Positions 1,474-47,080 of a stretch of DNA of 64,000 bases are shown piece by piece. Position 1 is the first letter of the stretch. Every line of letters begins with the position of its first letter. The DNA comes from Faecalibacterium sp. I4-3-84. Its GTDB lineage: Bacteria > Bacillota > Clostridia > Oscillospirales > Ruminococcaceae. The stretch is from positions 434,001 to 498,000 of the forward strand of contig NZ_CP094466.1 of NCBI RefSeq assembly GCF_023347255.1. Direction: 5' to 3'. The position numbers and the translations under genes were made by a program. The notes under the pieces are model-generated. The model had not been told where the DNA came from and did no database searches. It saw nothing but the letters and a program-made list of their open reading frames with translations.

Positions 1474-1836
1474 TTGGCAGCTTATATTTCCGTGCCGCGC
1501 GATTTCAGCAAGGTGAAGTCCAAAGTAGCCTTCAACCTGACCGCCCGGCAGCTTATCTGTTTTGGTGCAGCGGCAGTCGTAGGGGTGCCGCTGTTTTTTG
1601 TTCTGCGGGACACCGCTGGCAATTCCGGTGCTACCCTCGGCATGATGGCGGTCATGCTGCCCATGTTCTTTCTGGCCATGTATCAGAAGAACGGTCAGCC
1701 GGCTGAAAAGATCCTGCGGTACTACTTTCAGGCGCGCTTTGTTCGCCCGAAGGTGCGTCCGTACCAGACCCGCAATTACTATGCACTGCTTGTGAAGGGA
1801 GATGACGCCCATGATTCCGTTTCTGAAAAAGAATAA
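1474..1836 (+). CDS. prgI: PrgI family (VirB3-like) conjugation protein
   Basis: TTG 1474 is preceded by a strong AGGAGGTGG (1461-1469). The 120-residue product starts MAAYISVPRDFSKVKSK, typical of PrgI proteins, with two membrane segments near residues 25-65 and a basic C-terminal tail. PrgI and VirB3-like proteins pair with the VirB4 ATPase at the membrane, and virB4 follows here with a 35-bp overlap. The unusual TTG start is accepted because of the ribosome-binding site and the conserved N-terminus. Confidence 0.87.
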   Translation: MAAYISVPRDFSKVKSKVAFNLTARQLICFGAAAVVGVPLFFVLRDTAGNSGATLGMMAVMLPMFFLAMYQKNGQPAEKILRYYFQARFVRPKVRPYQTRNYYALLVKGDDAHDSVSEKE

Positions 1837-26653: not shown

Positions 26654-26929
26654 ATGAGGTTCGTTTTTAAGATGATCGTTTTCCCGTTTTGGCTGCTTAC
26701 AGCTTACCTTGCGCTGATGCTGAAATGGACGCTGAACCTGTCGGCGTTTGTGCTGGCGCTGCCCATGCTGTATATTTTCGGCTGCGGTCTTTATACGCTG
26801 TACTGCCGGGAGTGGATGCAGTTCTTGATTTTGCTGGTGGCAGAGTTTGGCTGCTTCCTGCTCATCACCGCCGGAACGGTCATTGTGGAAGCCGTAGAAT
26901 GGCTCAGCGGTTGGATTGCAGAATTATAA
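26654..26929 (+). CDS. Small ICE membrane protein
   Basis: ATG 26654 is spaced properly from AAAGGCGG; the in-frame GTG 26645 is too close. The 91-residue product has three predicted membrane helices (about 5-25, 32-50, 58-85) and no other motif. Genes of this size and topology lie between mobC and the relaxase in related elements. Function is unknown. Confidence 0.6.
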   Translation: MRFVFKMIVFPFWLLTAYLALMLKWTLNLSAFVLALPMLYIFGCGLYTLYCREWMQFLILLVAEFGCFLLITAGTVIVEAVEWLSGWIAEL

Positions 26930-26982
26930 AATTTTTATGCCGCCATTGTGCGGCATTTTCTTTTTGCCGGGAGGTGGTAGAA

Positions 26983-28368
26983 CTGGCTGCAACACGCTTG
27001 ATTGCGCTGCACAAAAACAAAGGCAAGTCGGTTGCGGCCTGCCTGAAAAGCCGAACAGATTACGCCCAGAACCCGGACAAGACACAGCAGGGCGAACTGG
27101 TCAGCAGTTACGAATGCAGTCCCCTGACCGTGGATGAAGAATTTATGCTTTCCAAACGCCAGTATGAGTTGATGACTGGGCGCAGGCAGAAAAGCGATGT
27201 GATTGCCTATCAAATTCGACAGTCTTTCAAACCCGGTGAGATCACCGCCGAAGAAGCCAACAAGGTGGGCTACGAACTGGCAATGCGTTTCACCAAAGGC
27301 AAGTATGCGTTTATTGTCGCAACGCATACCGACCGAGAACACATTCATAATCACATTATCTACAACTCCACTGCATTGGACAGCACCCGAAAATTCCGGG
27401 ATTTTTTGTTGTCCGGGCTGGCGGTGCAACGGTTGAGCGATTTGATTTGTCTGGAACATCAACTGTCTGTCATTGAAATCAAGCCGTACCGAGAGCGACA
27501 GAAGCGCACCCTTTATCCACCCAGAGAAAGTAATCGAGATAAGTTGTGTGCCGTAATTGACAACATCCTGCTGAACGAGAAAACTGCAAGTTTCGAGGGC
27601 TTCCTTCAAAAGCTGGAACAGCAGGGCTACGAAATCAAACGGGGAAAGTACACTTCGGTCAAAGGAACACGGCAGAAACGCTTTATCCGTTTTCGGACAC
27701 TGGGCGCAGGATACAGTGAAGATGAAATCAAGGCGGTCATTGCCGGAGAAGCCGAACACCGCCCACATCAGAAGCAGCCACCGAAAGAGCAGCCGTTCCA
27801 CCTGTTGGTGGACATTCAGGCAAAGCTCTCCGAGGGCAAAAGCGAAGGCTATGCACGGTGGGCGAAACGCTACAATTTGAAAGAGATGTCCAAGACCTTG
27901 ATTTTTTTGCAGGAAAATAAAATCGGCAGCATCGAAGAAATGCAGGAGCGTGTGGACGCTGCCACTGCCCGTTATCATGAACTTGGTGATTCCATTAAAG
28001 CCTCTGAAAATCGGCTGGCAGAAATTGCGGTGCTGAAAGCGCATATCACCAACTACGCCAAAACGCGACCGGTCTACGATGCCTACCGTAAGACCGGATA
28101 CAGCAAGCGCTTTCTGGAAACGCACCGCACGGAGATCACGTTGCACAAGGCAGCGAAAGCGGCGTTTGATGAAGCCAACTTGAAAAAACTCCCCAAGGTC
28201 AAGGAGTTGGATGTGGAATATTCCAAGCTGCTGACAGAAAAGAAAGTACGCTACCCGGACTACCGCAAAGCGAAAGAAGAAATGCAGGAGCTTCTTCGTG
28301 CAAAGAGAAACGTAGAAATGTTCTTTGCAGAGGAAAAGAGCATTGCCGAAAAAATGAAGTCCCGATAA
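26983..28368 (+). CDS. Relaxase (MobP/Tn1549-type mobilisation nickase)
   Basis: The protein begins AATRLIALHKNKGKSVAACL and carries the metal-binding motif THTDREHIHNHIIYNS near residue 116, typical of relaxases that nick oriT and lead the strand into the channel. The C-terminal half is coiled. Start choice: the position of the family's initiator Met is CTG 26983, eight bases after GGGAGG (26969-26974). GTG 26974 is an in-frame alternative but sits on the ribosome-binding site. Length from 26983 is 461 residues. A strong terminator follows directly. Confidence 0.92.
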   Translation: MAATRLIALHKNKGKSVAACLKSRTDYAQNPDKTQQGELVSSYECSPLTVDEEFMLSKRQYELMTGRRQKSDVIAYQIRQSFKPGEITAEEANKVGYELAMRFTKGKYAFIVATHTDREHIHNHIIYNSTALDSTRKFRDFLLSGLAVQRLSDLICLEHQLSVIEIKPYRERQKRTLYPPRESNRDKLCAVIDNILLNEKTASFEGFLQKLEQQGYEIKRGKYTSVKGTRQKRFIRFRTLGAGYSEDEIKAVIAGEAEHRPHQKQPPKEQPFHLLVDIQAKLSEGKSEGYARWAKRYNLKEMSKTLIFLQENKIGSIEEMQERVDAATARYHELGDSIKASENRLAEIAVLKAHITNYAKTRPVYDAYRKTGYSKRFLETHRTEITLHKAAKAAFDEANLKKLPKVKELDVEYSKLLTEKKVRYPDYRKAKEEMQELLRAKRNVEMFFAEEKSIAEKMKSR

Positions 28369-29553: not shown

Positions 29554-29564
29554 ATACTTAGGGG

Positions 29565-29853: not shown

Positions 29854-29909
29854 ATAACAAAAATCTCTCTGCGTAGGCTAATAGAACTACACAGAGAGAT
29901 TTTTGTTAT
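29854..29909. terminator. Bidirectional terminator-like hairpin
   Basis: ATAACAAAAATCTCTCTG pairs with CAGAGAGATTTTTGTTAT around about 20 bases, with A and T tracts inside the stem arms. It can end transcription from the DUF2975-HTH operon. Confidence 0.75.
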
Positions 29910-30060
29910 GATTCAGAAATACATTCAAACTCAAGAGAGTGTTCTCCACTTGTCAATGATTCACAATCTATTTGACAGAAGCATCGTTGCTTACGGAACT
30001 GAAACCAACTAGACGATCAATCTTGTAAATGTAATCACCCCTTCCATTGGCTGCAATAAT
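29907..30060 (+). pseudogene. IS3-family transposase remnant
   Basis: YIQTQESVLHLSMIHNLFDR and SIVAYGTETN, then an in-frame TAG and TINLVNVI, match the catalytic-core stretch of IS3/IS150 OrfB (pattern YLSMIxDLYDxSIVAY). Only about 50 codons remain and stops interrupt them. From 30060 to 30270 I see further AT-rich decayed sequence but no gene. Confidence 0.65.
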
Positions 30061-30270
30061 TATAGTCTTTGACAGAAAAAGCTTTTTATCAACTAAATGA
30101 GAGCATTTTCATCTACATTACCTGTCTTACCACTCTAACGAGCCGTGCCCATAAAGCATATCTTCTAAGATGATAAGTTCTTTGTCATCTCACCTTACTT
30201 GAACCTTATAGATAAAACATTTTTGCACCCTCCGTTATGCTAGCGACTTTGAATTGTTCAAGCTAACCTA

Positions 30271-30307
30271 TAAAAAACTGCCCACACACAAATCCTCGTG
30301 AGTGGAC
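30271..30307 (-). terminator. Terminator of the RiPP-ABC operon
   Basis: On the minus strand CTGTCCACTCAC pairs with GTGTGTGGGCAG around an 8-nt loop and is followed by six T. It lies about 50 bases beyond the ABC transporter stop. Confidence 0.8.
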
Positions 30308-30359
30308 AGAAAAGTTAGTTGATAGTGTTATATACTATTTCTAGATACTTTTTAAGTTA

Positions 30360-31982
30360 TCACATACAGGGTTGAAGTGTGATGATCTTATCAAAATATG
30401 GAATTAAAGTGTCATCATGAGTAATAACAATAATCAAATGGTTTCGCTTGACGGATTTAAGATATTTCATTAAATTTAATCTTGCTTTAGCATCAAGTGC
30501 TGAAGTTGGTTCATCAAAAATCATTACATGTCGATTTCGTATCAGTGTTCGAATGAGTGCAATTTTTTGCTTTTCACCGCTCGATATATTAGAAAGACTA
30601 GAGTCAACGATAGTATTTAGACATAAATGCGCATTTTCTTCTTGGTCAAACAAGCCTAATATATCAGTGAATTTTTTTATGTCGGTTGATGAATAAGTTT
30701 CCCCTAGGGTTATGTTGTATTCGATAGTTTCATTTAGCAGAATCGGTTCGCTTTCACAATAAGAGATATTTTTTTCTCTTAATTTAGAAAAACATATGCG
30801 AGTTGATGAAATGCCATTAATGAAGAGATTTGATGCGTTATAAATTCCCATTAAAATATATGCAAGTGTTGTTTTTCCACTTCCATTTTCACCCAAAACA
30901 CCATAAATATATCCCTCATAAAAAGAGTAATTCAAATTTTTAAAAACCACCTTTGAACGGTATTGGAAATTCAGCCCAGTTAGATTTATACTATGTATCT
31001 CAACAAGCTTATATGTACCGTCTTTAGGAACAGAAGCGCAAACAATTTTACTTATTCTATCAAACGATGCTTTGGTTTCTTGCAAATTTTTACCCATAGA
31101 GAAGAAATATTTGATGCCTCTCATAGATGTTCTACTTAAAGATAAAAGTATTGAAAATTCTCCGATCGACATTTTTTGATGAAAAATATACACGCCAGAA
31201 ACAATAAAAAATAAAACTTGTATAACAATTTCAAAAAAGCTATCAAGCATCGAAAAAGAAAAACTTGTATTTTGATATACAATCGCTTTTTTATATAGTA
31301 TGGAAAAGGCTGAATCTAATTGATTGAGCATTTTTGAACTTGCTTCAAAAGCTTTAATAAATGGAAGAAAATCCAGTTGTTCATATAGTTTTCCGAAAAA
31401 CAATCCTTGTGCTTCTTTATATGATAAACTAGATATATAAACTTTTTTTCGTAGCAAACTATACAGTAATGCATATGCACTTATTGATCCTATTAAGATA
31501 AGCGCAATCCCTAAATTGTAATAAAAGGTATAGCATATTGCAAATAACCCCATAATCAAATTTATTACGGAATTAGAGAAAAATTCCAAGAAAAAAGAAG
31601 ATACTTGATATGAATCATTATTGATTTTTTGAGTCAAAGATGCAGCATTCTCTGATCGTACATCCAATAGAGATATTGTATGTATTTTTTGAAGAACATC
31701 TCTGTTGATCTTGTACATAATTTGGTTGTTGGCTTTTGCTGTTAAGAGATTTCCGAGAAAGCTAAAAACGATACTTCCTATAAAAGTAACGGTGTACAAA
31801 ACGCAAAACTTAACAAGTAAATCGATTTCTTTTCCACTATATAGAGTATCAAAAATGGCACCAGTAACAAACATTATGACTAGCGACAGAAAGTTAGAAA
31901 TTAAAATGCAAAAAAAAGACGAGATAAGAACTGCTTTACAATCGATAGCCTTTTTCCAAACAAATTTAATCATTGTAAACAT
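30360..31982 (-). CDS. ABC exporter of the RiPP locus (membrane and ATPase domains fused)
   Basis: The 540-residue protein has an N-terminal six-helix membrane domain (residues about 1-310) and an ATPase domain with GENGSGKTT (Walker A), SSGEKQ (signature) and MIFDEPTSALD (Walker B). There is no C39 peptidase domain at the N-terminus, so it does not itself cleave a double-glycine leader. ATG 31982 has GAGG upstream and overlaps the maturase gene by 17 bases, which ties its job to export of, or immunity to, the modified peptides. A separate protease would be needed to remove the leader. Confidence 0.9.
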   Translation of the reverse strand: MFTMIKFVWKKAIDCKAVLISSFFCILISNFLSLVIMFVTGAIFDTLYSGKEIDLLVKFCVLYTVTFIGSIVFSFLGNLLTAKANNQIMYKINRDVLQKIHTISLLDVRSENAASLTQKINNDSYQVSSFFLEFFSNSVINLIMGLFAICYTFYYNLGIALILIGSISAYALLYSLLRKKVYISSLSYKEAQGLFFGKLYEQLDFLPFIKAFEASSKMLNQLDSAFSILYKKAIVYQNTSFSFSMLDSFFEIVIQVLFFIVSGVYIFHQKMSIGEFSILLSLSRTSMRGIKYFFSMGKNLQETKASFDRISKIVCASVPKDGTYKLVEIHSINLTGLNFQYRSKVVFKNLNYSFYEGYIYGVLGENGSGKTTLAYILMGIYNASNLFINGISSTRICFSKLREKNISYCESEPILLNETIEYNITLGETYSSTDIKKFTDILGLFDQEENAHLCLNTIVDSSLSNISSGEKQKIALIRTLIRNRHVMIFDEPTSALDAKARLNLMKYLKSVKRNHLIIVITHDDTLIPYFDKIITLQPCM

Positions 31983-33261
31983 TTTGTGCCTCAGTACGAC
32001 GTGAGTTTAAAATTTGAGCTAGGGAAACGTAATTATACCTTACTGTGGCACAATTCATAATATTGGAAGAGATATTGTGGTATGGACATCCACCTAAGCA
32101 AACCGGAAGAAATGCACATTCTTTGCATTCTGAATAATATGTAAAATTATAACATGTCCATTTTTTCATATTCGGCGTATCAAATCCGGTTTTGACGTTA
32201 CCGGAGGATTTTTCTTTAATTCCAATCTCATCCCAACATTTGTATAAATCACCCAATGGATCAATGACGAAACTGTTAGATGCTACGGCTCCACAAAGTT
32301 GTCCGTTGAACCGTGGAAGGCCAACAAACGTGTACCCTCTGTTTAAATTTCTCATATAGAAGGCCGATTCATACTCGGAGAAATCGCGGCTATTCAAGCA
32401 GCCGGAGTGGTAGCAATTCCCAATATTGTTAATATCGTCAACTGCAGCGATATAAACATTCACCTTTCCTCTAAGATTGTACTGATCAAAGTAATCAAGC
32501 AGTTCATCAACTCGTTCCATATTCTTTCTGTCAATGTTAATGCGAATACTAATATTCAAAAATTCACATGCTTCAGAAATATTTGACAAGATCCTGTAAA
32601 ATGTATCCGAATGATTTGGCAGACATCTCCGTTCATTGTGTATATCCGGTGGGCCATCAACTGTAACCTGTGCAGCGACAACGTTAAGTTCTTTTAAATA
32701 TTTTGCCATATCTGAGGTTAGGTAATACCCATTTGTAACTATTGATGAATGAAGATCCACATTTTTGTGTAATTCAATTGCCCTAGTAATCTGTTCAATG
32801 ATTTTAGGCTGTAATAGCGGCTCCCCGCCATACCAAGAAATAGAAACGTGATGCTTACCATCAATTAGCTGAGTAGCTTCGATTCTTTCGTGAATAAAAT
32901 GAATTACATCGCTAACTATAGAAGGCGTCATGGTATTATACTTTCTACCTGTTTCATAGCAATAGGGGCATCTGAAATTGCAAGACAATGTAGGTGCAAT
33001 CGTAAGTGAAAGAATTCGGTTGCTTTTCATAGAATCTTGCATAATATTCGTTAAACGAGCAAATTCATCGATTTCATCTGCAACATAGAATCCTCCTTTT
33101 TCCATGTTGGAAAAATAATTGGCAATATCGGCTTTTTTATCATTTGAAACATATTGAGAATAGTATTCATCATTGAGTAAAACGGTCGCACCTGTAACGG
33201 TATTATACAATAAATGTTTGTCGCCAAAATTCGACAATATGTTGTACCTCGATTTTTTCAC
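31966..33261 (-). CDS. Radical SAM/SPASM peptide maturase
   Basis: GTG 33261 has GGAGG (33267-33271) upstream and gives 431 residues beginning MKKSRYNILSNFG. The N-terminal ~80 residues look like a peptide-recognition region. CNFRCPYC (Cys 94, 98, 101) is the radical SAM cluster motif and WYGGEPLL follows. The C-terminal Cys set (KCWDEIG, ECKECAFLPVCLGGCPY) is a SPASM domain holding extra Fe-S clusters. Such enzymes form thioether or related cross-links in ribosomal peptides. Two Cys-rich precursor genes lie directly upstream and an exporter downstream. The chemistry (thioether, C-C or other) cannot be read from sequence. Confidence 0.92.
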   Translation of the reverse strand: MKKSRYNILSNFGDKHLLYNTVTGATVLLNDEYYSQYVSNDKKADIANYFSNMEKGGFYVADEIDEFARLTNIMQDSMKSNRILSLTIAPTLSCNFRCPYCYETGRKYNTMTPSIVSDVIHFIHERIEATQLIDGKHHVSISWYGGEPLLQPKIIEQITRAIELHKNVDLHSSIVTNGYYLTSDMAKYLKELNVVAAQVTVDGPPDIHNERRCLPNHSDTFYRILSNISEACEFLNISIRINIDRKNMERVDELLDYFDQYNLRGKVNVYIAAVDDINNIGNCYHSGCLNSRDFSEYESAFYMRNLNRGYTFVGLPRFNGQLCGAVASNSFVIDPLGDLYKCWDEIGIKEKSSGNVKTGFDTPNMKKWTCYNFTYYSECKECAFLPVCLGGCPYHNISSNIMNCATVRYNYVSLAQILNSRRTEAQNVYND

Positions 33262-33273
33262 AATAAAACCTCC

Positions 33274-33314
33274 AAAAGAGCAGCAGAAGTAATATGAATC
33301 TTCTACTGCTCTTT
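33274..33314 (-). promoter_or_regulatory. Attenuator hairpin between precursors and maturase
   Basis: On the minus strand AAAGAGCAGTAGAAG pairs with CTTCTGCTGCTCTTT (one G-T pair) around a 10-nt loop, followed by four T and the maturase ribosome-binding site. A leaky terminator at this point would make precursor mRNA exceed maturase mRNA, as is common in RiPP operons. Confidence 0.75.
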
Positions 33315-33352
33315 GATAAAAACATGTAATCAACCAAAATGACGACAGGTCA

Positions 33353-33493
33353 TCACGTATTGATCAGGCATTTAAAACAAACATTTACGGGACAGAAATC
33401 TGGATCATCCTTTCGAGCAACGCAAATTCGCATTACACATACAGCACTTAATGACAGATCGTCTTGATTCTGCGGACTCTGTAACCATTCCAT
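33353..33493 (-). CDS. Cys-rich RiPP precursor peptide B (46 aa)
   Basis: ATG 33493 follows GAAGGTG and the frame ends at TGA 33353-33355. The peptide starts MEWLQSPQNQDDLSLS and then has Cys 19, 24, 34, 39 and 42 in a short core ending CFKCLINT. Its first seven residues mirror those of the neighbouring peptide (MDWLQNP), so both share a leader. It lies 92 bases upstream of the maturase. I do not recognise a named precursor family. Confidence 0.78.
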   Translation of the reverse strand: MEWLQSPQNQDDLSLSAVCVMRICVARKDDPDFCPVNVCFKCLINT

Positions 33494-33521
33494 AAAATAC
33501 ACCTTCACTCATGATAAAAAA

Positions 33522-33704
33522 TTATAAGCATTCATCGGTAGAAAGTACATGGATAAAACAAATCATCATACCACGGCAGGTATCACTTGAAGTATATACC
33601 GGGCATACGCCATAAGCAGAACAACGTCCAAGACATTTTGCTCCTTGGCATGGACAGGAAGAAGATAACTCCGCGATATCTAAGGGATTTTGTAGCCAAT
33701 CCAT
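33522..33704 (-). CDS. Cys-rich RiPP precursor peptide A (60 aa)
   Basis: ATG 33704 has a GGAGG ribosome-binding site and the frame codes MDWLQNPLDIAELSSSCPCQ, then a core with eight Cys in all (17, 19, 24, 28, 34, 43, 49, 59). The leader MxWLQxP is shared with peptide B; the cores differ. It is the first precursor after agrD in the same direction. Dense Cys plus a radical SAM/SPASM enzyme suggests thioether-bridged peptides of the ranthipeptide or sactipeptide kind, which is an inference. Confidence 0.8.
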   Translation of the reverse strand: MDWLQNPLDIAELSSSCPCQGAKCLGRCSAYGVCPVYTSSDTCRGMMICFIHVLSTDECL

Positions 33705-33803
33705 TTTTATTCCTCCATTCTTCTTGATTGATCATTATTATCTGCATGAGATTCATCTCGCCATTATCGATTGTTTTGGCAGCAATGACAACTCGAAAAA
33801 TTA

Positions 33804-33974
33804 TTATTTGTTTTTTATTTGGGTTCCTTTGATATTTTGGAGGTCGGTTTTATCATATAGTTCAAGGGGCCTCTCGGGCTGATAGAGAATACTAGTACAC
33901 GTCGGAGGCCAACCAAACCGCTCCAAGTCGATCATATATTCCAGAAGGTTCTTTGCAATCAAATCAATGCTCAT
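33804..33974 (-). CDS. agrD: AgrD-like autoinducing peptide precursor
   Basis: The 56-residue frame overlaps the 3' end of agrB (ATG 33974, or 33977 with one more Met). It has the AgrD layout: an amphipathic N-terminal helix (MSIDLIAKNLLEYMIDLERF), a core PPTCTSILY with a single Cys at residue 26, and a charged tail QPERPLELYDK comparable to the Pro/Glu tail of known AgrD proteins. AgrB would cut after the core and form a thiolactone between the Cys and the core's last residue. CTSIL or CTSILY is the likely ring. Confidence 0.83.
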   Translation of the reverse strand: MSIDLIAKNLLEYMIDLERFGWPPTCTSILYQPERPLELYDKTDLQNIKGTQIKNK

Positions 33975-34548
33975 CATAAAATTCCTTTCTTTTTATATTT
34001 TCAATTTGGAGCAGCACGACGGTAGAAAGCACACTCCAAAATGTACAACTTAATACAATTGGACATTCGCAAAAAATCATATTAAAAAACCAAATTATAT
34101 AGACGACAACTTTTTTCTTTTGATTATTTGCATTTTTTTCATTTTCTCCGAAATGTACATACTGAGGATATAATGGTGAACAGTGAAGAAGGTTTGCAAA
34201 TAATACAGCATTCAAAATCAATGTGATAATTGGCGGTACTCGTTCAACAAATGGCTCCAAGAACACTGTTATTAGTAAAAGCATTACACTGCTTAAAGTA
34301 AGGCATTTCCAAGGTGAAGATGCATGCCATCCCCCAATGTGTCTCCGAATTGAGCAGAAGATAATTAAAAACAAAACAGTCTCTAAAGGTCTTTTAATGT
34401 AGAGAGAAAAAATCAATGCAGTCATTCCAAAGATAAGCCGAATGGTTTTCTTCTCTATAACATATTGGCACCAACTCTTGTTTTTTCTTTCTACAATTCC
34501 AATTTTAATGAAATAGTCAGATAGATACTTTGAAAATTTCTTTATCAT
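33964..34548 (-). CDS. agrB: AgrB-type peptide protease/cyclase
   Basis: ATG 34548 follows AAAAGGA and the product is 194 residues with several membrane helices. RRHIGGWHASSPWKC contains the catalytic pair His 75 and Cys 82, seven residues apart as in staphylococcal AgrB (His 77, Cys 84). AgrB cleaves AgrD and makes its thiolactone. The gene is the first of the agrBD-RiPP transcription unit and its promoter (34568-34631) carries the paired regulator boxes. Confidence 0.93.
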   Translation of the reverse strand: MIKKFSKYLSDYFIKIGIVERKNKSWCQYVIEKKTIRLIFGMTALIFSLYIKRPLETVLFLIIFCSIRRHIGGWHASSPWKCLTLSSVMLLLITVFLEPFVERVPPIITLILNAVLFANLLHCSPLYPQYVHFGENEKNANNQKKKVVVYIIWFFNMIFCECPIVLSCTFWSVLSTVVLLQIENIKRKEFYDEH

Positions 34549-34567
34549 TTCCTTTTCACCTGTTGGT

Positions 34568-34631
34568 ACTATACTACAAATCTTTGACTGATTGTCGCTT
34601 TTGCGGTGAATGCCATATTTTTTGCAGTGAA
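34568..34631 (-). promoter_or_regulatory. agrB promoter with LytTR-type box pair
   Basis: On the minus strand TTCACTGCA (34623-34631) and TTCACCGCA (34602-34610) are exactly 21 bp apart, and TATAGT (34568-34573) lies 28 bp beyond. Two 9-bp direct repeats on a 21-bp period are the layout bound by AgrA/LytTR regulators. Matching elements lie at 38783 and 40222. Confidence 0.82.
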
Positions 34632-34651
34632 ATTGGCATTGCAAGGTTGAT

Positions 34652-34683
34652 TTCCCACCAACCAAAATAATGGTTGGCGGGAA
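34652..34683 (-). terminator. Hairpin upstream of the agrB promoter
   Basis: CCCGCCAACC pairs with GGTTGGTGGG on the minus strand around eight bases. It separates the remnant at 34750-35022 from the agrB promoter; the T-tract is weak. Confidence 0.6.
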
Positions 34684-34749
34684 TCACATAGTCTTCTAGT
34701 AAGCAGTACCAAAAAGCTATCAAGGTGCTACTTATTTAGAACAATTCCT

Positions 34750-35022
34750 TTATATGGCGTTATAATATCCTGCGGCAATAGTTTCCCAGTCGTCATAGTC
34801 CGTTGTTGAAAATCCTGCCGCTGCAAAACTTCCCATATGTAAAGTTGTTAAGTCAAAAAAAGAGCCGGTATATCCGTAGTTGAAGTTCCCCAAAATTTCA
34901 CTTGTAATATGATGAAATTCTCCGTCATAATACGAACAGAATACTCGATTGTACGGCTCATAAGGAGCAAAAAAATTAAAAATGCAGCACAAGCCATAGA
35001 TCGTGCGGTGAAACGGGCATTG
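34750..35022 (-). pseudogene. C-terminal fragment resembling a polymorphic toxin (type 44-like)
   Basis: A minus-strand frame is open from a TGA at 35023-35025 to TAA at 34750. It has no good start codon. ITSEILGNFNYGYTGSFFDL and DDWETIAAGYYNAI recall the GNxxYGYxG...DDxxDxxxIxxG pattern at the end of polymorphic toxin type 44 domains. The upstream codons fall inside a regulator-box element, so a deletion seems to have fused a promoter to a gene tail. The assignment is tentative and the fragment is probably not functional. Confidence 0.45.
34983..35012 (-). promoter_or_regulatory. Degenerate LytTR-type box pair
   Basis: On the minus strand TTCACCGCA (35004-35012) is followed 21 bp later by the weaker TGTGCTGCA (34983-34991). 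The left context (GACAAT) and the TATGGC spacer match the element at 40222. No TATAGT lies at the expected distance, so it may be a decayed promoter. Confidence 0.5.
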
Positions 35023-35130
35023 TCAATTGTAGGATGTTAAAACTAATGGTTTGAGTGAGCCTTAGAAATGTATTTTATTAGTAAAACCTCTGCCTGCTTA
35101 ACTCGTGGTTTCAAATCTCTCAAGCTAACA

Positions 35131-35178
35131 AAAAAATCCCACCTGTCCGATGCTTTAGGCAAATAACAGGCGGGATTT
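35131..35178 (-). terminator. Terminator of the agrA-agrC operon
   Basis: On the minus strand AAATCCCGCCTGT pairs with GACAGGTGGGATTT and runs into further T. It lies 11 bases after the agrC stop. Confidence 0.85.
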
Positions 35179-35188
35179 GACAATTTAA

Positions 35189-36511
35189 CTAACGACTGAT
35201 TGGGAGTTGTGCAGAAAAAGAGAAAAGTTGCTTCTGTGAACTATAATCAAAAACATAGAGAGCCCCTATATTATCTAAAATAGCTGTGACATTTTTCAAA
35301 CCGTAACCATGTTCAATTGATGTGGTTTTAGAAATCACTATTTTGTTATCAAGAATTTCTACATTATGCGCTGTACGATTTTCAAGATATAAGAATCCTG
35401 CAGCTTCTTTCGTTCTCATCTTCAACAGTATTCTTCTTTCTTCAAAATTCGAAATATCCATACAGGCATTTAAAGCGTTGTCTAAAAGGTTAGAAAGGAC
35501 AACTATTAATTCTTCATCTGATAATGGAAAAGTAGTGAGATCCCCAAGCTGTAGTTGAAATGAAATTTGATTTTTGACAGCAATAGAATATTTTTGAGTC
35601 AACAAAATATCTACTACATTGCGTCCTGTCTTGGTAATCAATGTTGGAAGCATTTCTTTTTTTAGTAATGGCCTTACATATTTTAGAACTTGACTATCTG
35701 GTGATTCTTGTTGTGCCAATCCATAAATTATAGCTAATTGATTTTGAAAATCATGCGTCTTTTTTCGCTGGTCAGAATAGGCCTCCACTAATGCCTCCAT
35801 GCTCTCTTTTTCCTGCTTGATACTACGTTTTAAGATGATATTATCCTGCAATGCAGCTTGTTGTTGATCCATATAATCGAGTACCCATATTGCCATTACA
35901 TCAAAGAATAAAAGAACGATTTCGCAAAGGAGCAACTCTGTTCCAGCATTGGATTCAATTTCATAAATTTGAAAAAGCATTACAGAACAGAAGGTTGTAG
36001 TTAGTGGAAATAGCATTGCTCGAAGCCAATCATGCCAAATAGTGTTTTTGAATTGAAATCGCTTTTTTGCGAGTAACCCGATTATAGCAACAATTAAAAG
36101 TTCCACGCATTTTACTCCATAACATATTAAGTAATACTCTACTGGATTTTCCATGTATGAGGAAAATTCTCTCTTGGATAGAAATGAAATAGCTAAAAGG
36201 ACTAGAACATCCCATATGCTTACAAATGAATAAAATCCAACGGCGATTCCGATACTTTGTATGATGGTGTCTATATAAGAAATTTTCAACCATATAGCAT
36301 CCACTATGATTAATACAAATGCTTTGAGCCAAAAATACTTATCAAGTAGTGCAAGGGCAGCAATATTAAAAACCGCCAACAAAATAATTGAAATCAGGAA
36401 CTTTACTGTTGATAGATTTTTCTTGAAAAAAACTGAAGCAAAAAAAGTTAGCACAATCACTTCAAGTAGTACCAATAATGTATTGCTCAACAACAGAAGA
36501 AGTCTATTCAT
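35189..36511 (-). CDS. agrC: AgrC-like sensor histidine kinase (GHKL)
   Basis: ATG 36511 overlaps the agrA stop (ATGA); GAAGGG lies upstream. The 440-residue protein has about six membrane helices in the first 220 residues, then KKTHDFQNQL with the phospho-accepting His. ATP-binding motifs are VLSNLLDNALNAC (N box) and EHGYGLKNV (G box). Peptide-sensing kinases of the AgrC/ComD group share this plan. It would detect the AgrD-derived peptide at the membrane and phosphorylate the adjacent LytTR regulator. Confidence 0.92.
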   Translation of the reverse strand: MNRLLLLLSNTLLVLLEVIVLTFFASVFFKKNLSTVKFLISIILLAVFNIAALALLDKYFWLKAFVLIIVDAIWLKISYIDTIIQSIGIAVGFYSFVSIWDVLVLLAISFLSKREFSSYMENPVEYYLICYGVKCVELLIVAIIGLLAKKRFQFKNTIWHDWLRAMLFPLTTTFCSVMLFQIYEIESNAGTELLLCEIVLLFFDVMAIWVLDYMDQQQAALQDNIILKRSIKQEKESMEALVEAYSDQRKKTHDFQNQLAIIYGLAQQESPDSQVLKYVRPLLKKEMLPTLITKTGRNVVDILLTQKYSIAVKNQISFQLQLGDLTTFPLSDEELIVVLSNLLDNALNACMDISNFEERRILLKMRTKEAAGFLYLENRTAHNVEILDNKIVISKTTSIEHGYGLKNVTAILDNIGALYVFDYSSQKQLFSFSAQLPISR

Positions 36512-37218
36512 AGGTTTGTTCCCTTCCAAAGCAAGAATTTTCTACAGATTTCTTTATAATTTTTTTCTGAAACTCTAATCGTTGTACTATTTCGAAGCTG
36601 CGCACTGTAGCTAGCTATCTTATCAATATAATGCATATTCACCAAGAAGCTTTTTTGCAACCGAATAAAGCCTTGGTCGGAAAGGAAATTATCATAGTCT
36701 TCTAATTTTCCAAGACATTCTATGGTTTCACCATTCAACAGAAAGACCTGTACTCTTCGCTGAGAAGTTCCCTCAAAGTAGAGAATATTTTTTATAGCTA
36801 AAGGCAGGATTCGGTCCCTTTGTCGAATTTGAATAGTGCGGTTATTATCATATAGTTTTTCTTGCAGATCATCCATACAATCAGAAAGTTCTTCATCTAA
36901 TTGTGTTTTGAGAAGATATCGAAAAGCGTTCACCTTATATCCTGAAGGTGCATACTTAATAAAGGATGTCACAAATACTAATATCATCTCTGGATATCGT
37001 TGATGGAGTACCTTTGCAACATCTAGTCCGTTAATTTCCGGCATATCAATGTCAAGAAAGGCCACCTGTATAGATGATAAATCATCTTCAAGTAGATTTT
37101 TGCTAGAGGAAAAAATTTGGCAATCATATAAAAGATCTTTTCTAGCGCAGTACTCCTTTATTTTCTTGTCTAGTATTTTAGAAAATTCCAACTCATCGTC
37201 AAGAATTACAATCTTCAC
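36508..37218 (-). CDS. agrA: AgrA-like LytTR response regulator
   Basis: The receiver domain has IVILDDE at the start, the phospho-acceptor in AFLDIDMPEINGLD and a late Lys (LLKTQ). The C-terminal LytTR domain contains ILYFEGTSQRRVQVF and GFIRLQKSFLVNMHYI. I take GTG 37218 as start because VKIVILDDE is the usual N-terminus and GGAGG precedes it, though 12 bases away; ATG 37263 is an alternative. LytTR domains bind paired 9-bp repeats on a 21-bp period, exactly the layout found at three promoters in this island. Confidence 0.92.
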   Translation of the reverse strand: MKIVILDDELEFSKILDKKIKEYCARKDLLYDCQIFSSSKNLLEDDLSSIQVAFLDIDMPEINGLDVAKVLHQRYPEMILVFVTSFIKYAPSGYKVNAFRYLLKTQLDEELSDCMDDLQEKLYDNNRTIQIRQRDRILPLAIKNILYFEGTSQRRVQVFLLNGETIECLGKLEDYDNFLSDQGFIRLQKSFLVNMHYIDKIASYSAQLRNSTTIRVSEKNYKEICRKFLLWKGTNL

Positions 37219-37386
37219 GGCACAATCGAACCTCCGTATCTTTCTCTTATATTGATTAACCATACCGCGAAAACCTCCATATTGTCAACATTATTTTTGC
37301 AATTCGCATCTTTAGCACAATTATCAAGCATTCATGTGTTAAAGTCAAGAAAAATGCTGATTATTAGCATAAAGTGGGATTGGTGC

Positions 37387-37629
37387 ATGAAGATATATGA
37401 TTATGCCGGCAAGAAGAACATTAGTGGGGAACGGATACGAGAAGCACGAACACGGCTCCATCTGACACAAACAAATCTTGCTGTTCAGCTTAAACTTGTA
37501 GGCGTTGACGTGGAACGCGATTCTATAAGCCGTATCGAAATTGGAACACGATTTGTTACCGATTACGAAATTCGCGAATTATCAAAAATTTTGAAAGTTA
37601 CTCCCACATGGCTTCTTGGGATGGAGTAA
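37387..37629 (+). CDS. Xre-family helix-turn-helix regulator
   Basis: The 80-residue product has RIREARTRLHLTQTNLAVQL, VERDSISRIEIGTR and ELSKILKVTPTWLLG, a complete Cro/C1-type DNA-binding domain with nothing else. It is divergent from agrA and could regulate the island, perhaps by repressing agrAC. This is a positional guess. Confidence 0.82.
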   Translation: MKIYDYAGKKNISGERIREARTRLHLTQTNLAVQLKLVGVDVERDSISRIEIGTRFVTDYEIRELSKILKVTPTWLLGME

Positions 37630-37636
37630 CCAAACG

Positions 37637-37671
37637 AAAAGTGTAGCGGTTTGTGACTGCTGCACTTTTTT
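37637..37671 (+). terminator. Terminator after the Xre regulator
   Basis: AAAAGTGTAGC pairs imperfectly with GCTGCACTTTT and is followed by six T. Confidence 0.7.
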
Positions 37672-37673
37672 CG

Positions 37674-38782: not shown

Positions 38783-38845
38783 CTCACCGCAGAAACTATG
38801 GCTTTTACGGCAAATCTCTCAATTTTGTCTCCTTGTGTGTTATAG
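38783..38845 (+). promoter_or_regulatory. Promoter with LytTR-type box pair, before the secreted-protein gene
   Basis: CTCACCGCA (38783-38791) and TTTACGGCA (38804-38812) are 21 bp apart; TATAGT (38840-38845) begins 27 bp after the second. The TATGGC spacer also matches the agrB element. Downstream lies a possible 7-codon leader frame (38882-38905, MQKGKKM) with its own GAGGTG, then the gene at 38947. Confidence 0.8.
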
Positions 38846-38946: not shown

Positions 38947-39573
38947 ATGAAACGTTTTGTTGCTTTGGTTCTTTCCACGTTTGTTTTATTTGCTGCAGGA
39001 TTGGTTTCATTTGCTGCTCCTGTACATAGCAATTCTCCTGCGCAGTGGCATGCGACGGCAGTACTAACCAATACTGATACTGGTGAAAAATCCTTCGTGC
39101 CTATTAATTTGGCAGAAAGCTCCATAAAAAAAACTAGCGATTCCTCACAATGTTTTACTGAAAAAGCAACAGTATACTTTAAGATTTCTAATAGCGAGAT
39201 TCAACCTTGTTATTCGGATACATCTATTTCCGAAACAGATGTTAAGGCAACCATTAAAATCACTTATAATCGTTCTAGTGATAAAATACAAGTGACCAAT
39301 GTTAGCGGTTCATGGATACCCGATAATTCTCAAATTCAAATAAGTAACCGATCTGTTGATTATGGTGATGGTGGTCCTCTCAGCAGTGGTCATAGTGCGC
39401 ATCAAAAACCAACATCAAATTCTTTTTCCTACACAACCGGCTGGCCATGGGTGACATGGTATCCTGCTTCGTCTGATGCAATGAGTGGCGCAAGAGCGTA
39501 CTCGACTGCGACAGTATCTGTAACTGGTATGAGTTCGCATACTATTGAGGTGTTTGTGACAGCCACAAAATAA
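38947..39573 (+). CDS. Secreted protein of unknown function under agr-type control
   Basis: The 208-residue product begins with a signal peptide (RFVALVLSTFVLFAAGLVSFAA). The mature part is Ser/Thr-rich and probably beta-structured, with no known motif, two Cys (residues about 67 and 91) and a Trp-rich patch (TGWPWVTWYP). GAGGTAAG precedes ATG 38947. Its promoter has the same paired boxes as agrB, so it is likely a quorum-regulated exoprotein. I do not recognise its family. Confidence 0.8.
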   Translation: MKRFVALVLSTFVLFAAGLVSFAAPVHSNSPAQWHATAVLTNTDTGEKSFVPINLAESSIKKTSDSSQCFTEKATVYFKISNSEIQPCYSDTSISETDVKATIKITYNRSSDKIQVTNVSGSWIPDNSQIQISNRSVDYGDGGPLSSGHSAHQKPTSNSFSYTTGWPWVTWYPASSDAMSGARAYSTATVSVTGMSSHTIEVFVTATK

Positions 39574-40221: not shown

Positions 40222-40284
40222 CTCACTGCAAAAAATATGGCATTCACTGCATTTTGGGCAGCTGTAAAATTTTTGTGATATAGT
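40222..40284 (+). promoter_or_regulatory. Promoter with LytTR-type box pair, before a short RNA
   Basis: CTCACTGCA (40222-40230) and TTCACTGCA (40243-40251) are 21 bp apart; TATAGT (40279-40284) begins 27 bp after the second box. The first box and spacer (CTCACTGCAAAAAATATGGC) nearly match the agrB promoter. Confidence 0.8.
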
Positions 40285-40290: not shown

Positions 40291-40424
40291 CGAAGTAAGT
40301 GTGTACTTCATAAAACAATCGTATGATGTAGCTTTGTTCAGCTCTTGCGGTTGCATGATTGATACCAGCACAGCATAGGGATTCACCGTACAGAGCGAGT
40401 GAAGCCCTGATGCTGTGCTTTTTT
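40291..40424 (+). ncRNA. Candidate agr-controlled small RNA (about 134 nt)
   Basis: Transcription from the TATAGT at 40279 would begin near 40291 and meet a strong terminator at 40368-40424: GCACAGCATAGGGATTCAC pairs with GTGAAGCCCTGATGCTGTGC before six T. No frame longer than a few codons with a ribosome-binding site lies between. It may be an RNAIII-like effector of the island, or an attenuated leader of the SARP-like gene at 40447. The transcript is inferred. Confidence 0.55.
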
Positions 40425-40446
40425 ATTTGATACGAGGTGAGATTTT

Positions 40447-41766
40447 ATGCGTCAGTCTGATCATGAGTACGAAGAACGGAGCTTTGGAGATATTCAACGT
40501 GCAATTGATTTTGATAACAGTATGAACGACCTAGAATCGCAATTGTATTACCGGCGTCTTTCCCCGAAAGAAGTTGCCCAGCAGGTGCTGAAAGCTACCT
40601 GTCAATTCTACGATGCTGACTGGTGTGGGTTGATTCAGGTTGATCTTGATCTGAACTTGTGGACACCTTTCTGGTGGTTCAACACGGGTGCAACGGACAA
40701 AACAATGCTTTTGACCGAAGAATATGAATCCGCTGAATTTCTGGATCGGTGGGTACAGGCTGTCCGTAAGGGTATTCCGATGGTCGTTCCGGATGCCGAG
40801 GCGACAAAAGAAACCTATCCTGCGGAGTACGACCTGTACCAGCGGCTTGGCATACGGTCTGTCATTGCCGTTTCTCTGGAACCGCGCCCGGTCGCGCTGC
40901 TCGCCGTCCGCAATCCCAAACGGTACATCCAGCAGACCAGTATGCTGCGGATTCTGGCCTATGTGCTGCTTGCATCGTACAACGAACAGAAAATGCTGAA
41001 TCGGCTCCAAATGGCGTATATTCCTACTTCGATTCAAAGCAGCAAGGACATCTATGTCAGTCTGTTTGGCGAACTGAGCATCAGTACGTCCAAAGGCGTT
41101 CTGAAAGAAGCCGATTTTAATTCTCCGAGAATCAGCCGACTGATTTCGTATCTGCTGATCTCCCGCAAAAATGCTATTTCTCCGCAGGAGATCACGCAAA
41201 CACTCTGGCCGGATGATTCAGACAATCCCGCCAAGAACGTCAAAGGGCTGGTTTACCGTTTACGCCAGAAGTTCAGTATTATTTCGGATGAACCATTGGT
41301 TTTATCCTCCGCATCCGGATATCAGCTTAACCCGGAACTCCATATTATGACGGATTATCAGCGTTTTGATGAACTTGTATCTTCCGCTGTCAGAGCGTCC
41401 TCCGTAATCAACAAAGTGGACATCCTTAAAAATGCTCTTGACCTCTACCATGGAAGGGTCTTGTCCTCCGCAGACGGAGAACATTGGCTCATTCAGTTTG
41501 CCACAAAATACCATCTTTCCTATATGAGTGCTGTCAGTGAACTGCTGAAGCAGCTGGATTCGCTGCGTTCTTATGACCTGCTCAATCAGTACGCCATGAA
41601 GTCTCTGGCCATCGCTCCGGATAATCCGAAAGCATACTGCTGGCTGATTCGCTCCCTGAAAGCGCAGGGAATGAATGAACTTGCAACCAATGAACTGGCC
41701 GCAGCAAAGGAACATCTTACCACGGAAGAATACGAAGAAATCCTTGCATTTGGAGTCAATCGGTGA
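40447..41766 (+). CDS. SARP-like transcriptional activator (GAF, winged helix, BTAD)
   Basis: ATG 40447 follows GAGGTGAG. The 439-residue protein has a GAF-like N-terminal domain (about 40-190), an OmpR-type winged helix (about 205-290, with SRLISYLLISRKNAISPQEI and GLVYRLRQKF) and a bacterial transcriptional activator domain of helical repeats (about 305-435). This is the order of SARP-like regulators, which bind heptamer direct repeats on an 11-bp period. Exactly such repeats begin 12 bases after the stop. It probably controls the downstream structured RNA and sigma-like gene of the ICE. Confidence 0.85.
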   Translation: MRQSDHEYEERSFGDIQRAIDFDNSMNDLESQLYYRRLSPKEVAQQVLKATCQFYDADWCGLIQVDLDLNLWTPFWWFNTGATDKTMLLTEEYESAEFLDRWVQAVRKGIPMVVPDAEATKETYPAEYDLYQRLGIRSVIAVSLEPRPVALLAVRNPKRYIQQTSMLRILAYVLLASYNEQKMLNRLQMAYIPTSIQSSKDIYVSLFGELSISTSKGVLKEADFNSPRISRLISYLLISRKNAISPQEITQTLWPDDSDNPAKNVKGLVYRLRQKFSIISDEPLVLSSASGYQLNPELHIMTDYQRFDELVSSAVRASSVINKVDILKNALDLYHGRVLSSADGEHWLIQFATKYHLSYMSAVSELLKQLDSLRSYDLLNQYAMKSLAIAPDNPKAYCWLIRSLKAQGMNELATNELAAAKEHLTTEEYEEILAFGVNR

Positions 41767-45347: not shown

Positions 45348-45485
45348 ATGGACGAATGCAGAATCAAACGCTATACTGAGTGCGGTAACGGGCGGTATTA
45401 CAAACCGAGCTATTGCCGGACGTTCTTTGACAACGAAATAAAGCCTATCCCCACTTTTATGATGAAAGTGAGGAATTTACAATGA
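45348..45485 (+). CDS. Small Cys-containing protein coupled to the recombinase (45 aa)
   Basis: ATG 45348 opens MDECRIKRYTECGNGRYYKP, with three Cys at 4, 12 and 23, and ends at TGA 45483-45485 overlapping the recombinase ATG (ATGA). The preceding gene ends 5 bases earlier, so these form a tight operon. It could be a recombination directionality factor by position and size, but there is no direct sign of this. Confidence 0.5.
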   Translation: MDECRIKRYTECGNGRYYKPSYCRTFFDNEIKPIPTFMMKVRNLQ

Positions 45486-47080
45486 CAAAAAACAACAATC
45501 GCGTGTGCTGCTTGTACCGCGTTTCCACCGATAAGCAGGTGGATTTCAACTCCAACCATGAAGCAGACCTGCCCATGCAGCGAAAGGCTTGCCATAAATT
45601 CGCTGCATCGAAGGGCTGGGTCATCGTCCATGAAGAACAGGAAGAAGGCGTGTCCGGCCACAAAGTCCGGGCCGCCGCCCGCGACAAGCTACAGATCATC
45701 AAGGACTATGCCCGAAGGGGCAAGTTCGATATCCTGCTGGTATTCATGTTCGACCGTATCGGTCGTATCGCAGATGAAACGCCCTTTGTTGTGGAATGGT
45801 TTGTACGGAACGGCATCCGGGTATGGAGTACCCAAGAGGGTGAGCAGCGTTTCGACAACCACACTGACAAACTGCTGAACTACATCCGCTTCTGGCAGGC
45901 GGACGGCGAGAGCGAAAAGACTTCCGTCCGTACCCGTACCAGTCTGCGCCAGCTTGTGGAAGAAGGTCACTTCAAGGGCGGAAATGCGCCTTATGGCTAT
46001 GACCTTGTACGGAGTGGGCGTATCAACAAACGCAAACACGAACTCTACGAACTGCACATCAACGAACAGGAAGCTGCCGTAGTGCGGATCGTCTTTGACA
46101 AGTATGTTTATGAGGGCTATGGTCCGCAGCACATTGCTACCTATCTGAATAATTCTGGCTATCGTGCAAGGTCTGGAAAGTGCTGGCACCCATCCAGTAT
46201 TCGGGGGATGGTACAAAACCTGACCTACACCGGCGTTCTCCGTTGCGGGGATGCACGGTCAGAATTGATGCCCGATTTGCAGATTGTCCCGCAGGAACAG
46301 TTTGAAAACGCACAACGCATTCGGAATGAACGTTCTGTACGCTCAACTGCGGAAGCCGAAAATCGCCTTCCTTTGAACATCCATGGGAAGTCGCTGCTTG
46401 CCGGCAACGCTTACTGCGGACACTGCGGTGCAAAGCTGGAACTGACCAGCAGCCGTAAATGGCGAAAAATGGCAGATGGTTCGTTAGACAATACGCTGCG
46501 TATTCGCTATACCTGTTACGGAAAGCTCCGCAAGCAGACCAACTGCACTGGGCAGACAGGGTACACTGTCCACATTCTGGATGAGATCATCGATAAGGCG
46601 GTCCGCCAGATTTTCTCCAAGATGAGGGGTATCCCAAAAGAGCAGATTGTTACAAAACGCTATGAAAAAGAAAACACGGAACGCAAGAATCATCTGCAAG
46701 ACCTTCAGACACAGCGGAACAAGGCAGAAAAAGACCTGTTGGCACTGAAAGCCGAGGTTTTAGCTTGCATCAAAGGTGAAAGCGTGTTACCGAGAGAAAC
46801 CCTTGCCGAAATGATTACAGTGCAGGAAGAGAAACTCACGGAGCTGGAAAACCTTTGCGAAGCGGCCAGTGAAGAACTGGAGAAAACGGCAGAGCTGATG
46901 GATAAAGTGTCGCGGCTGTATGATGAACTGATTTCTTATGCTGACCTGTACGACAGTGCAAATTTTGAAGCGAAGAAGATGATCGTCAGCCAGCTCATCC
47001 GCAGGGTAGACGTATATCGCGGCTATCAGATCAACATCTCGTTCAACTTCGATCTAACTCCTTACATTGAGGGGGAGTGA
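45482..47080 (+). CDS. Large serine recombinase of the ICE
   Basis: The 532-residue protein has the resolvase domain with catalytic Ser in LYRVSTDKQ (residue about 15), FDRIGR and the long linker helix. A recombinase domain (GGNAPYGYDLV, HPSSIRGMVQNLTYTGV) follows, then a zinc-ribbon (CGHCGAKLE) and coiled coil. It catalyses site-specific integration and excision. The gene sits next to the element end, and the att sites at 47434 and 52255/55177 show tRNA-Ala is the target. Its last ~33 codons recur inverted at 52614-52719. Confidence 0.95.
   Translation: MTKNNNRVCCLYRVSTDKQVDFNSNHEADLPMQRKACHKFAASKGWVIVHEEQEEGVSGHKVRAAARDKLQIIKDYARRGKFDILLVFMFDRIGRIADETPFVVEWFVRNGIRVWSTQEGEQRFDNHTDKLLNYIRFWQADGESEKTSVRTRTSLRQLVEEGHFKGGNAPYGYDLVRSGRINKRKHELYELHINEQEAAVVRIVFDKYVYEGYGPQHIATYLNNSGYRARSGKCWHPSSIRGMVQNLTYTGVLRCGDARSELMPDLQIVPQEQFENAQRIRNERSVRSTAEAENRLPLNIHGKSLLAGNAYCGHCGAKLELTSSRKWRKMADGSLDNTLRIRYTCYGKLRKQTNCTGQTGYTVHILDEIIDKAVRQIFSKMRGIPKEQIVTKRYEKENTERKNHLQDLQTQRNKAEKDLLALKAEVLACIKGESVLPRETLAEMITVQEEKLTELENLCEAASEELEKTAELMDKVSRLYDELISYADLYDSANFEAKKMIVSQLIRRVDVYRGYQINISFNFDLTPYIEGE

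Follow-up and report, generated by a model that had tools for sequence, protein, structure and literature searches.

We asked whether the agr quorum-sensing genes and the radical SAM (S-adenosylmethionine) peptide-modification genes that lie together in a 64,000-nucleotide stretch of Faecalibacterium sp. I4-3-84 (contig NZ_CP094466.1, positions 434,001 to 498,000; the whole stretch is called the window) form one regulated unit. A sequence-only reading had described an AT-rich island with agrA-agrC, agrB-agrD, two precursors, a maturase and an exporter in one direction, and profile matches confirmed this description. The island (28900-40100) has a GC content of 0.357, with flanks at 0.518 (1-28000) and 0.549 (43000-64000), and its minus strand carries, in order, agrA, agrC, agrB, agrD, two Cys-rich open reading frames (ORFs), a radical SAM/SPASM enzyme and an ATP-binding cassette (ABC) exporter. 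From the sequence, we consider it likely that this is a quorum-sensing cassette for a ribosomally synthesized and post-translationally modified peptide (RiPP), borne by an integrative/conjugative element (ICE), in which AgrA would control a single transcript running agrB-agrD-precA-precB-rSAM-ABC (rSAM, the maturase gene). The features on which this reading depends are as follows.

36508..37218, minus strand: agrA, LytTR response regulator (PF04397 3.8e-15, PF00072 1e-9), GTG start behind GGAGG
35189..36511, minus strand: agrC, GHKL sensor histidine kinase (PF14501, HATPase_c_5, 1.7e-14)
33964..34548, minus strand: agrB, signal peptide protease/exporter (PF04647 1.6e-21, 76.9 bits, cut-off 23)
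33804..33977, minus strand: agrD, pro-signal overlapping the end of agrB, predicted ring C-T-S-I-L before YQPERP (TIGR04223 sub-threshold)
33522..33704, minus strand: putative precursor peptide A, 60 aa with 8 Cys, GGAGG ribosome site, leader common to A and B
33353..33493, minus strand: putative precursor peptide B, 46 aa with 5 Cys (E 4e-7 against A)
31966..33261, minus strand: radical SAM/SPASM peptide maturase (PF04055 1.4e-17; TIGR04334 the best NCBIfam match)
30360..31982, minus strand: ABC exporter, membrane and ATPase domains (PF00664, PF00005)
1802..4177, plus strand: TraG/VirB4-type conjugation ATPase (PF19044 7.8e-11)
26689..28368, plus strand: relaxase, whole open frame (PF03432 5.3e-31)
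45482..47080, plus strand: serine recombinase (PF00239, PF07508)

In the proposed mechanism, AgrB would cut and export AgrD to yield a cyclic peptide, as expected from its family, and AgrC would sense this peptide and phosphorylate AgrA. AgrA would then bind a direct repeat, visible as a phylogenetic footprint upstream of agrB, and drive a transcript that would end at a hairpin beyond the exporter gene. The radical SAM/SPASM enzyme would cross-link the precursors, probably through thioethers, before their export. The likely role of the product would be that of a population-triggered peptide against other strains, or of a second signal. AgrA may, in addition, act on the gene for a secreted protein nearby and on the regulator of the ICE itself.

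The peptide-modification half of the cassette exhibited the expected parts. Precursors A and B aligned over 36 residues and matched no NCBIfam or Pfam family; as two adjacent Cys-rich ORFs with a common leader and ribosome sites, they have the features of RiPP precursors, with putative coding status. The maturase gene has a GTG start at 33261 behind GGAGG, and its CxxxCxxC motif and several C-terminal Cys residues were invariant in 9 sequences. The Clo7bot family (TIGR04334, 270 of 600 bits), TIGR04463 (257 of 525) and PapB (NF047865, 131 of 340) were among the best-scoring families for this enzyme, yet all lay far below their curated cut-offs. Among the Pfam matches of the exporter there was no peptidase domain.

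The agr half contained both the GHKL kinase and the LytTR regulator of an agr system, with PF14501, PF04397 and PF00072 above cut-off. AgrC His259 and Asn347 were invariant in 3 sequences, and AgrB carries His75 and Cys82, a His and a Cys being the active pair of the AgrB peptidase family. Across seven aligned AgrD sequences, W-P-P-x-C and Y-Q-x-x-R-P were invariant, and the predicted signal cores, whose ring limits are estimates, were CTSIL, CMGGV, CAGII, CTGWL, CAGWM, CSGWL and CFGWL.

The gene junctions are compact. agrB and agrD overlap by 14 nt and rSAM and ABC by 17 nt, while gaps of 99 nt, 28 nt and 91 nt separate agrD from precA, precA from precB and precB from rSAM, respectively. Reading and folding the sequence revealed three hairpins in the cassette, none of which was listed by a consensus terminator scan (6 sites found, 4.5 expected).

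35134..35178, minus strand: terminator-like hairpin after agrC, parting agrAC from agrBD (z -4.3; seven-T run, three T in the stem)
33275..33314, minus strand: stable hairpin between precB and the maturase gene (z -4.0; only four T)
30278..30309, minus strand: terminator-like hairpin 3' of the exporter gene, followed by six T (fold z -3.6)

Where a single terminator had been claimed for the end of the operon there is a terminator-like hairpin (30278-30309), and further hairpins stand after agrC and between precB and the maturase gene. The hairpin between precB and the maturase gene is a possible attenuator or processing site and could lower the level of the maturase relative to that of the precursors. 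No stable fold was found in the agrD-precA gap (z -0.26).

The single promoter that had been placed ahead of agrB gained support from a direct repeat located there.

34599..34631, minus strand: AgrA/LytTR-type box TTCACTGCAAAA-N9-TTCACCGCAAAA, 21 bp from start to start, upstream of agrB (leave-one-out matrix 35.8 bits)

Downstream of this box lies the -10 hexamer TATAGT (34568-34573), and the box centre is an estimated ~54 nt before the inferred start. Equivalent repeats stand before agrB in loci L042 (genome G013) and L046 (G017), the two relatives whose AgrA (48-52%) and AgrC (41-43%) are closest to those of the window. With a matrix built from L042 and L046 alone, the agrB site ranked first in the window, followed by sites on the plus strand at 40222 (30.4 bits) and 38783 (17.4 bits), with the next best at 9.2, and ten other spacings yielded at most 13.0 bits in the window. 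When the full matrix was applied to 49 loci, some of them overlapping, only the three source loci (window, L042 and L046) exceeded 15.1 bits, the highest value among 152 controls. In the single-contig source genome (3,119,411 bases), the exact core pattern matched twice, both times in the island; allowing as many as 2 mismatches gave 20 matches and 2 for the reversed control, so weaker core matches are mostly uninformative. A -10-like hexamer occurred 36 or 37 nt past the second repeat in five of the six group-I sites (background 0.078 per site).

These matrices were built from few sites. In L046, the control with a spacing of 19 reached 21.0 because it overlaps the real site, and a site inside a gene scored 17.4. 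No box above 5.8 was found in L146, which has related agrAC and no agrB found, or above 12.6 in L147-L149, which have more distant agrC, and the exact box pattern had no match in viral contigs. Taken together, the footprint supports a promoter with AgrA-type direct repeats upstream of agrB, to which AgrA would bind. What the claim of one promoter did not anticipate is the two additional AgrA-like boxes 4-6 kb from the agrB box, and a sigma-70 candidate in the agrD-precA gap that is considered below.

If quorum control is the logic of the arrangement, then a maturase operon pointing away from agrBD should own an AgrA box. Such divergent loci were found in G013, G003, G002 and G500, and three of the four exhibited a box of their own. 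In L042 (G013), a site of 20.8 bits, ranking second within the locus, lies 127 bp upstream of the maturase start and has TAATAT at +37; no other spacing exceeded 14.9. For L043 (G003), the matrix was derived from further loci of the second AgrA clade, in which the -10 offset varies and is mostly 39. The best 21-bp-spaced site of L043 (21.7) precedes an operon that encodes a secreted-type protein, a small ORF with Cys and the maturase; other spacings gave at most 14.3, the agrB site (spacing 20) aside.

G500, from another family of the order, carries TTAGACAAA-N12-TTAGACAAA before agrB and TTAGACAAA-N12-TTGGACAAA before the maturase operon (L138). The G500 motif is unlike that of the window, and G500 is therefore an independent case. 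With up to 2 mismatches, TTRGACAAA-N12-TTRGACAAA matched 3 times in 3.2 Mb, always within the locus (reversed control 0): the exact matches stand before agrB and the maturase operon, and the third, with 2 mismatches, lies on the opposite strand 41 bp from the second. Downstream of each G500 box, at similar distances, stands TATAAT or TATACT, and none of 12 other spacings matched in the locus. Between agr and the G500 maturase operon, at L138 7076-7175, two oppositely oriented AgrA-like boxes stand back to back; one regulator could fire both ways from them.

The same gene combination had been proposed as a thing to look for in other genomes, and it was found. The AgrB of the window matched 9 of the 31 genus genomes searched, and in five of these nine (G000, G013, G003, G002, G008) a radical SAM match lay within 5 kb of agrB (expected 0.069, P 1e-8); leaving out the window's own genome, 4 of 8 were linked (P 6e-7). 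G016 has a more distant AgrB by Pfam and its maturase match on another contig; with G016 counted, 5 of 10 were linked (expected 0.073), and with G008 also left out, 4 of 9 (expected 0.058). In G002, the enzyme co-located with agrB resembles WgkB (293 bits, cut-off 650). Outside the genus, the search covered 297 family genomes and 394 order genomes, with AgrB sought in 20 of the 23 order positives, and took as positive a maturase match at E<=1e-50 (family) or E<=1e-55 (order) plus a PF04647 match. Ten genomes held both genes, within 10 kb of each other in three (expected 0.11, P 2e-4) and within 12 kb in four (expected 0.14). These Poisson tests presume random placement and independent genomes, both of which are violated by hotspots and descent.

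In G191, the genes run in one direction as agrA-agrC-agrB-agrD, a transposase-like piece, rSAM, a carrier-like protein, a Cys-bearing small ORF, a subtilase-like protein, a 128-aa protein and ABC. In G395, also in one direction, agrB-agrD-agrA-agrC are followed by 115-aa and 596-aa proteins, two putative ABC transporters, rSAM, a carrier-like protein, two small ORFs with Cys and, last, a subtilase-like protein. The gene names in G191, G395 and G500 other than agr and rSAM (and ABC in G191) were read from translations. Since the linked enzymes scored best with several different subfamilies, all below cut-off, the agr-maturase linkage may have arisen more than once. A contig search with the radical SAM query returned two distant loci with no agr match by tblastn. 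In viral contigs, agrC had no relative, and the maturase alignment considered the best 80 of 149 relatives, four of which were used as alignment rows.

Several findings weigh against an AgrA-controlled cassette of this kind. No leader protease or immunity gene was recognised in the cassette, so the earlier description of a self-contained system goes too far and the set is incomplete. AgrD scored 15.9 bits against TIGR04223 and missed the cut-off of 19; its position next to agrB and its invariant residues support a tentative assignment. At the divergent locus L045 (G002), the site before the maturase scored 14.2, below the best control at 15.8, and in L044 a control of 20.4 nearly equalled a site at 20.8. 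In the co-directional loci of G191 and G395, no 21-bp-spaced 9-mer repeat with up to 1 mismatch was found in the gaps tested. The linked maturase gene of G008 is internally deleted, leaving two short frames in place of the 426 aa encoded in G028. In 6 of the 10 outside-genus genomes with both genes, agrB and the maturase lie on different contigs, though a draft assembly can split genes that are in fact close together. A CefB-like maturase gene (474 bits, cut-off 600) with a Cys-repeat precursor occurs in G028, of the same species, which has no agr in the 20 kb read and no match to the window's AgrB. G029 and G017 have agr with no maturase gene in the stretch read.

A further point against a single AgrA-driven transcript is a candidate sigma-70 site, TTGTCA-17-GATAAT (33791-33763), between agrD and precA. 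From this promoter the RiPP operon could run by itself, and agr and RiPP genes would be independent neighbours gathered in one ICE slot that acts as a cargo hotspot. The many different cargos of the ICE neighbourhood are consistent with such a hotspot, as is the occurrence of agr and maturase each without the other. Sigma-70-like sites were about as common in the region as in shuffled sequence (39 versus 35.0, sd 5.0), and the site therefore neither proves nor excludes a second start. Against independent neighbours, the linkage recurs in other genera (G191, G395, G500), AgrA-like boxes precede divergent maturase operons, and within the ICE family agr and maturase occur together above expectation.

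This last point comes from a census of 39 of the 44 relaxase copies at >=70% identity, comprising L185-L220 (36 loci), the window, L042 and L045. The census omits the other five copies as well as L222 and L221 (relaxase 54%), and some of its contigs stop short. agr, counted where both AgrB and AgrC models matched, was present in 4 neighbourhoods (window, L042, L045, L191), with lone response-regulator matches of 28-45 bits (L185, L186, L187, L195, L218) uncounted. A RiPP-type maturase was also present in 4 (window, L042, L045, L201), and 3 of the 39 held both, which amounts to three of the four agr cargos (Fisher 0.0017; 0.013 without the window). This within-ICE test is fairer and weaker than the Poisson test. 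The L201 maturase (G028) likely lies in the ICE slot, with genes resembling another mobile element between it and the relaxase. A radical SAM match in L194 (41 bits) was dropped for its neighbours, which look like polysaccharide-type genes; counting it changes the Fisher value to 0.0042. With these observations set against the sigma-70 site, we consider independent neighbours an unlikely explanation.

It is very improbable that the radical SAM enzyme instead modifies AgrD itself, giving one modified signal with the Cys-rich peptides as accessories. agrD and the enzyme gene are adjacent and share one direction, and the authors who studied CA_C0082 of Clostridium acetobutylicum first hypothesised that it helps to modify the autoinducing peptide (PMC10301443, in excerpt). 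Against this, two precursors with a common leader directly precede the enzyme gene, other Cys-bearing small ORFs stand beside the enzyme in some linked loci, agr occurs without the enzyme in G029, and the active signal of C. acetobutylicum did not need the LanM-like protein (same excerpt). Decay into an inactive cassette, to which an Ntox44 toxin-domain remnant between agrC and agrB, transposase pieces next door and low GC might point, is hardly credible given that all eight cassette frames are open, key residues were in place in the proteins checked (maturase, AgrC and AgrB, not the exporter) and the promoter geometry is kept.

We therefore return to the AgrA-controlled cassette and its carrier. 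The claim that the locus is on a conjugative element held: the island sits inside an ICE, and the window contains a relaxase, a TraG-type ATPase, a topoisomerase, an SNF2-type giant protein and a serine recombinase by profile matches. In their aligned parts, the relaxases of L042 and L045 are 92.6% and 93.8% identical to that of the window. For L042, L045 and G008, respectively, identity to the window was 48, 32 and 33% for AgrA, 43, 23 and 21% for AgrC, 29, 20 and 23% for AgrB, and 36%, 21% and 35% for the maturase, the last over 70 residues. With a backbone 93-95% alike and diverged agr and maturase genes, the cassette thus moves or diversifies independently of the backbone. The far side of the slot and the additional AgrA-like boxes are marked by these features.

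40222..40254, plus strand: second AgrA-like box, upstream of the ICE regulator leader (30.4 bits; one of the two exact core matches of the genome)
40322..40446, plus strand: conserved leader with terminator hairpin (z -4.1, single sequence)
40447..41766, plus strand: GAF/winged-helix/BTAD regulator, an ICE backbone gene by profile matches
38783..38815, plus strand: third and weakest AgrA-like box (17.4 bits leave-one-out; TATAGT at +37)
38947..39573, plus strand: 208-aa protein with signal-like N-terminus, no family above cut-off
39596-39838: small protein after the 208-aa protein

In G008, G012 and G013, identity of the GAF/BTAD regulator to that of the window is 94.7%, 68.1% and 60.6%, respectively, and the leader is conserved with it (94%, 78% and, as a weak match at E 8.5e-4, 71%). 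Six of the 30 predicted pairs of the leader hairpin were kept by double-sided changes in at least one of four sequences (window, L161, L162, L163), and others were broken in one. This leader might act as an attenuator or yield a small RNA. We considered an RNAIII-like RNA starting at the 40222 promoter and rejected it, the hairpin being conserved with the ICE regulator and hence read as a leader; a short terminated transcript from this promoter is possible. The 40222 box itself falls outside the conserved stretch, since the G008 match starts at query base 204, and the sign of quorum control over the ICE regulator is thus limited to one element.

A broader proposal joins these observations: pherotype cassettes, each with its own signal, sensor and modified peptide, would interchange between the relaxase and the GAF/BTAD regulator of one ICE family, and AgrA would also drive the promoter ahead of the attenuator-like leader of the ICE regulator, so that one density signal would control both the peptide and the transfer programme. 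The rings concerned would be CTSIL, CMGGV, CSGWL and CFGWL, the last with no maturase gene in the stretch read. We put this joint proposal forward tentatively and regard it as rather doubtful in its full form.

The third box is the least certain because the in-gene site of L046 reached the same score. A weak AgrA-like box, a secreted-type protein gene and a gene for a protein of ~80 aa follow one another both in the window (38783-39838, 17.4 bits) and in L044 (8632-9820, 16.2). The pair of secreted-type and small proteins may be a second agr effector.

Relative to known systems, the locus is an agr counterpart of the streptococcal Rgg/SHP radical SAM peptide loci. In streptococci, the Rgg/SHP genes neighbour their radical SAM RiPP genes. 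The likeness is that quorum sensing governs production of radical SAM-modified peptides, streptide and tryglysin in the streptococcal case (PMC8092268 and PMC13361665, both in excerpt). There, Rgg senses a linear SHP, whereas here a two-component agr system and a predicted cyclic signal are present on an ICE, and the RiPP genes are probably cotranscribed with the signal gene. The agr locus of Staphylococcus aureus has the same gene set as the window. In the window, by contrast, agrA-agrC come before agrB-agrD, a peptide operon linked to agrBD serves as the effector and no RNAIII counterpart is shown. Both have AgrA-type direct repeats upstream of promoters, which S. aureus AgrA binds and which are centred near -60 there (PMC4227749, in excerpt).

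A RiPP-type enzyme gene adjoining agr and under agr control has been described in Clostridium acetobutylicum and relatives, where some such agr systems lie in lanthipeptide clusters; this enzyme, CA_C0082, is LanM-like and lacks catalytic residues, and is not a radical SAM enzyme, and the account makes no mention of mobility (PMC10301443, in the part available). In surveys with antiSMASH, ranthipeptide and cyclic-lactone-autoinducer clusters are separate categories, both present in 85.7% of 84 F. prausnitzii strains (PMC9846645, in part) and both counted in rumen isolates (PMC13289728, in part). The whole word 'agr' was not found in the main text of PMC13361665 as far as it was available, and the available portions of PMC12802319, PMC8326336 and PMC12715929 describe no agr-radical SAM locus. 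In the open-access literature, which leaves aside subscription papers and preprints, no paper among the matches listed had agr joined to a radical SAM RiPP operon. Quorum-controlled radical SAM RiPPs and an agr-linked RiPP enzyme are thus known, and the present locus would add to them a recurring regulatory design in which agr is joined to a radical SAM operon.

If the cassette works as proposed, bacteria would swap ready-made modules in which a private density signal switches on a modified peptide. Adding the predicted cyclic peptide would then be a direct way to supply the signal that induces silent radical SAM peptides, and the dependence on density could explain the possible silence of such clusters in dilute culture. 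The cassettes would also constitute a natural set of matched signal, sensor and peptide on one ICE backbone with which to study agr specificity, competition and co-evolution.

Two further features adjoin the agr genes.

37387..37629, plus strand: XRE-type regulator, divergent from agrA (HTH_3 23.5 bits, cut-off 23)
34750..34992, minus strand: remnant similar to the polymorphic toxin domain Ntox44, between agrC and agrB (PF15607 20.6 bits, below the cut-off of 24)

XRE-like genes also adjoin agrA in L042 and L046. An operator-like inverted repeat was seen by eye in the XRE-agrA intergenic region of three loci (window 37216-37400, L042 9746-9900 and L046 11712-12000), which suggests XRE control of agrAC.

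No near match to window 29800-41800 was found in the plasmid collection, and all 3 Rfam matches in window 28500-42000 were below gathering scores. Elsewhere in and around the island, transposase pieces (DDE_3, HTH_23), presumably IS630-like, occupy 37673-38707 between 20-nt inverted repeats that are 95% complementary, and a sequence resembling a miniature inverted-repeat transposable element, with imperfect terminal inverted repeats, was seen by eye at 39974-40118. A near-perfect inverted repeat at 29854-29909 (23-nt arms, 96% complementary) is perhaps a bidirectional terminator downstream of the cassette. The ICE also contains a group II intron reverse transcriptase/maturase (6462-7940), and further cargo at 13820-18405 comprises an AMP-binding enzyme, a partial radical SAM match below cut-off and an ICMT-type methyltransferase. 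Small genomes of the family (0.7-0.9 Mb; G116, G098, G255, G307 and G202) each exhibited 2-6 radical SAM maturase matches at E<=1e-20.

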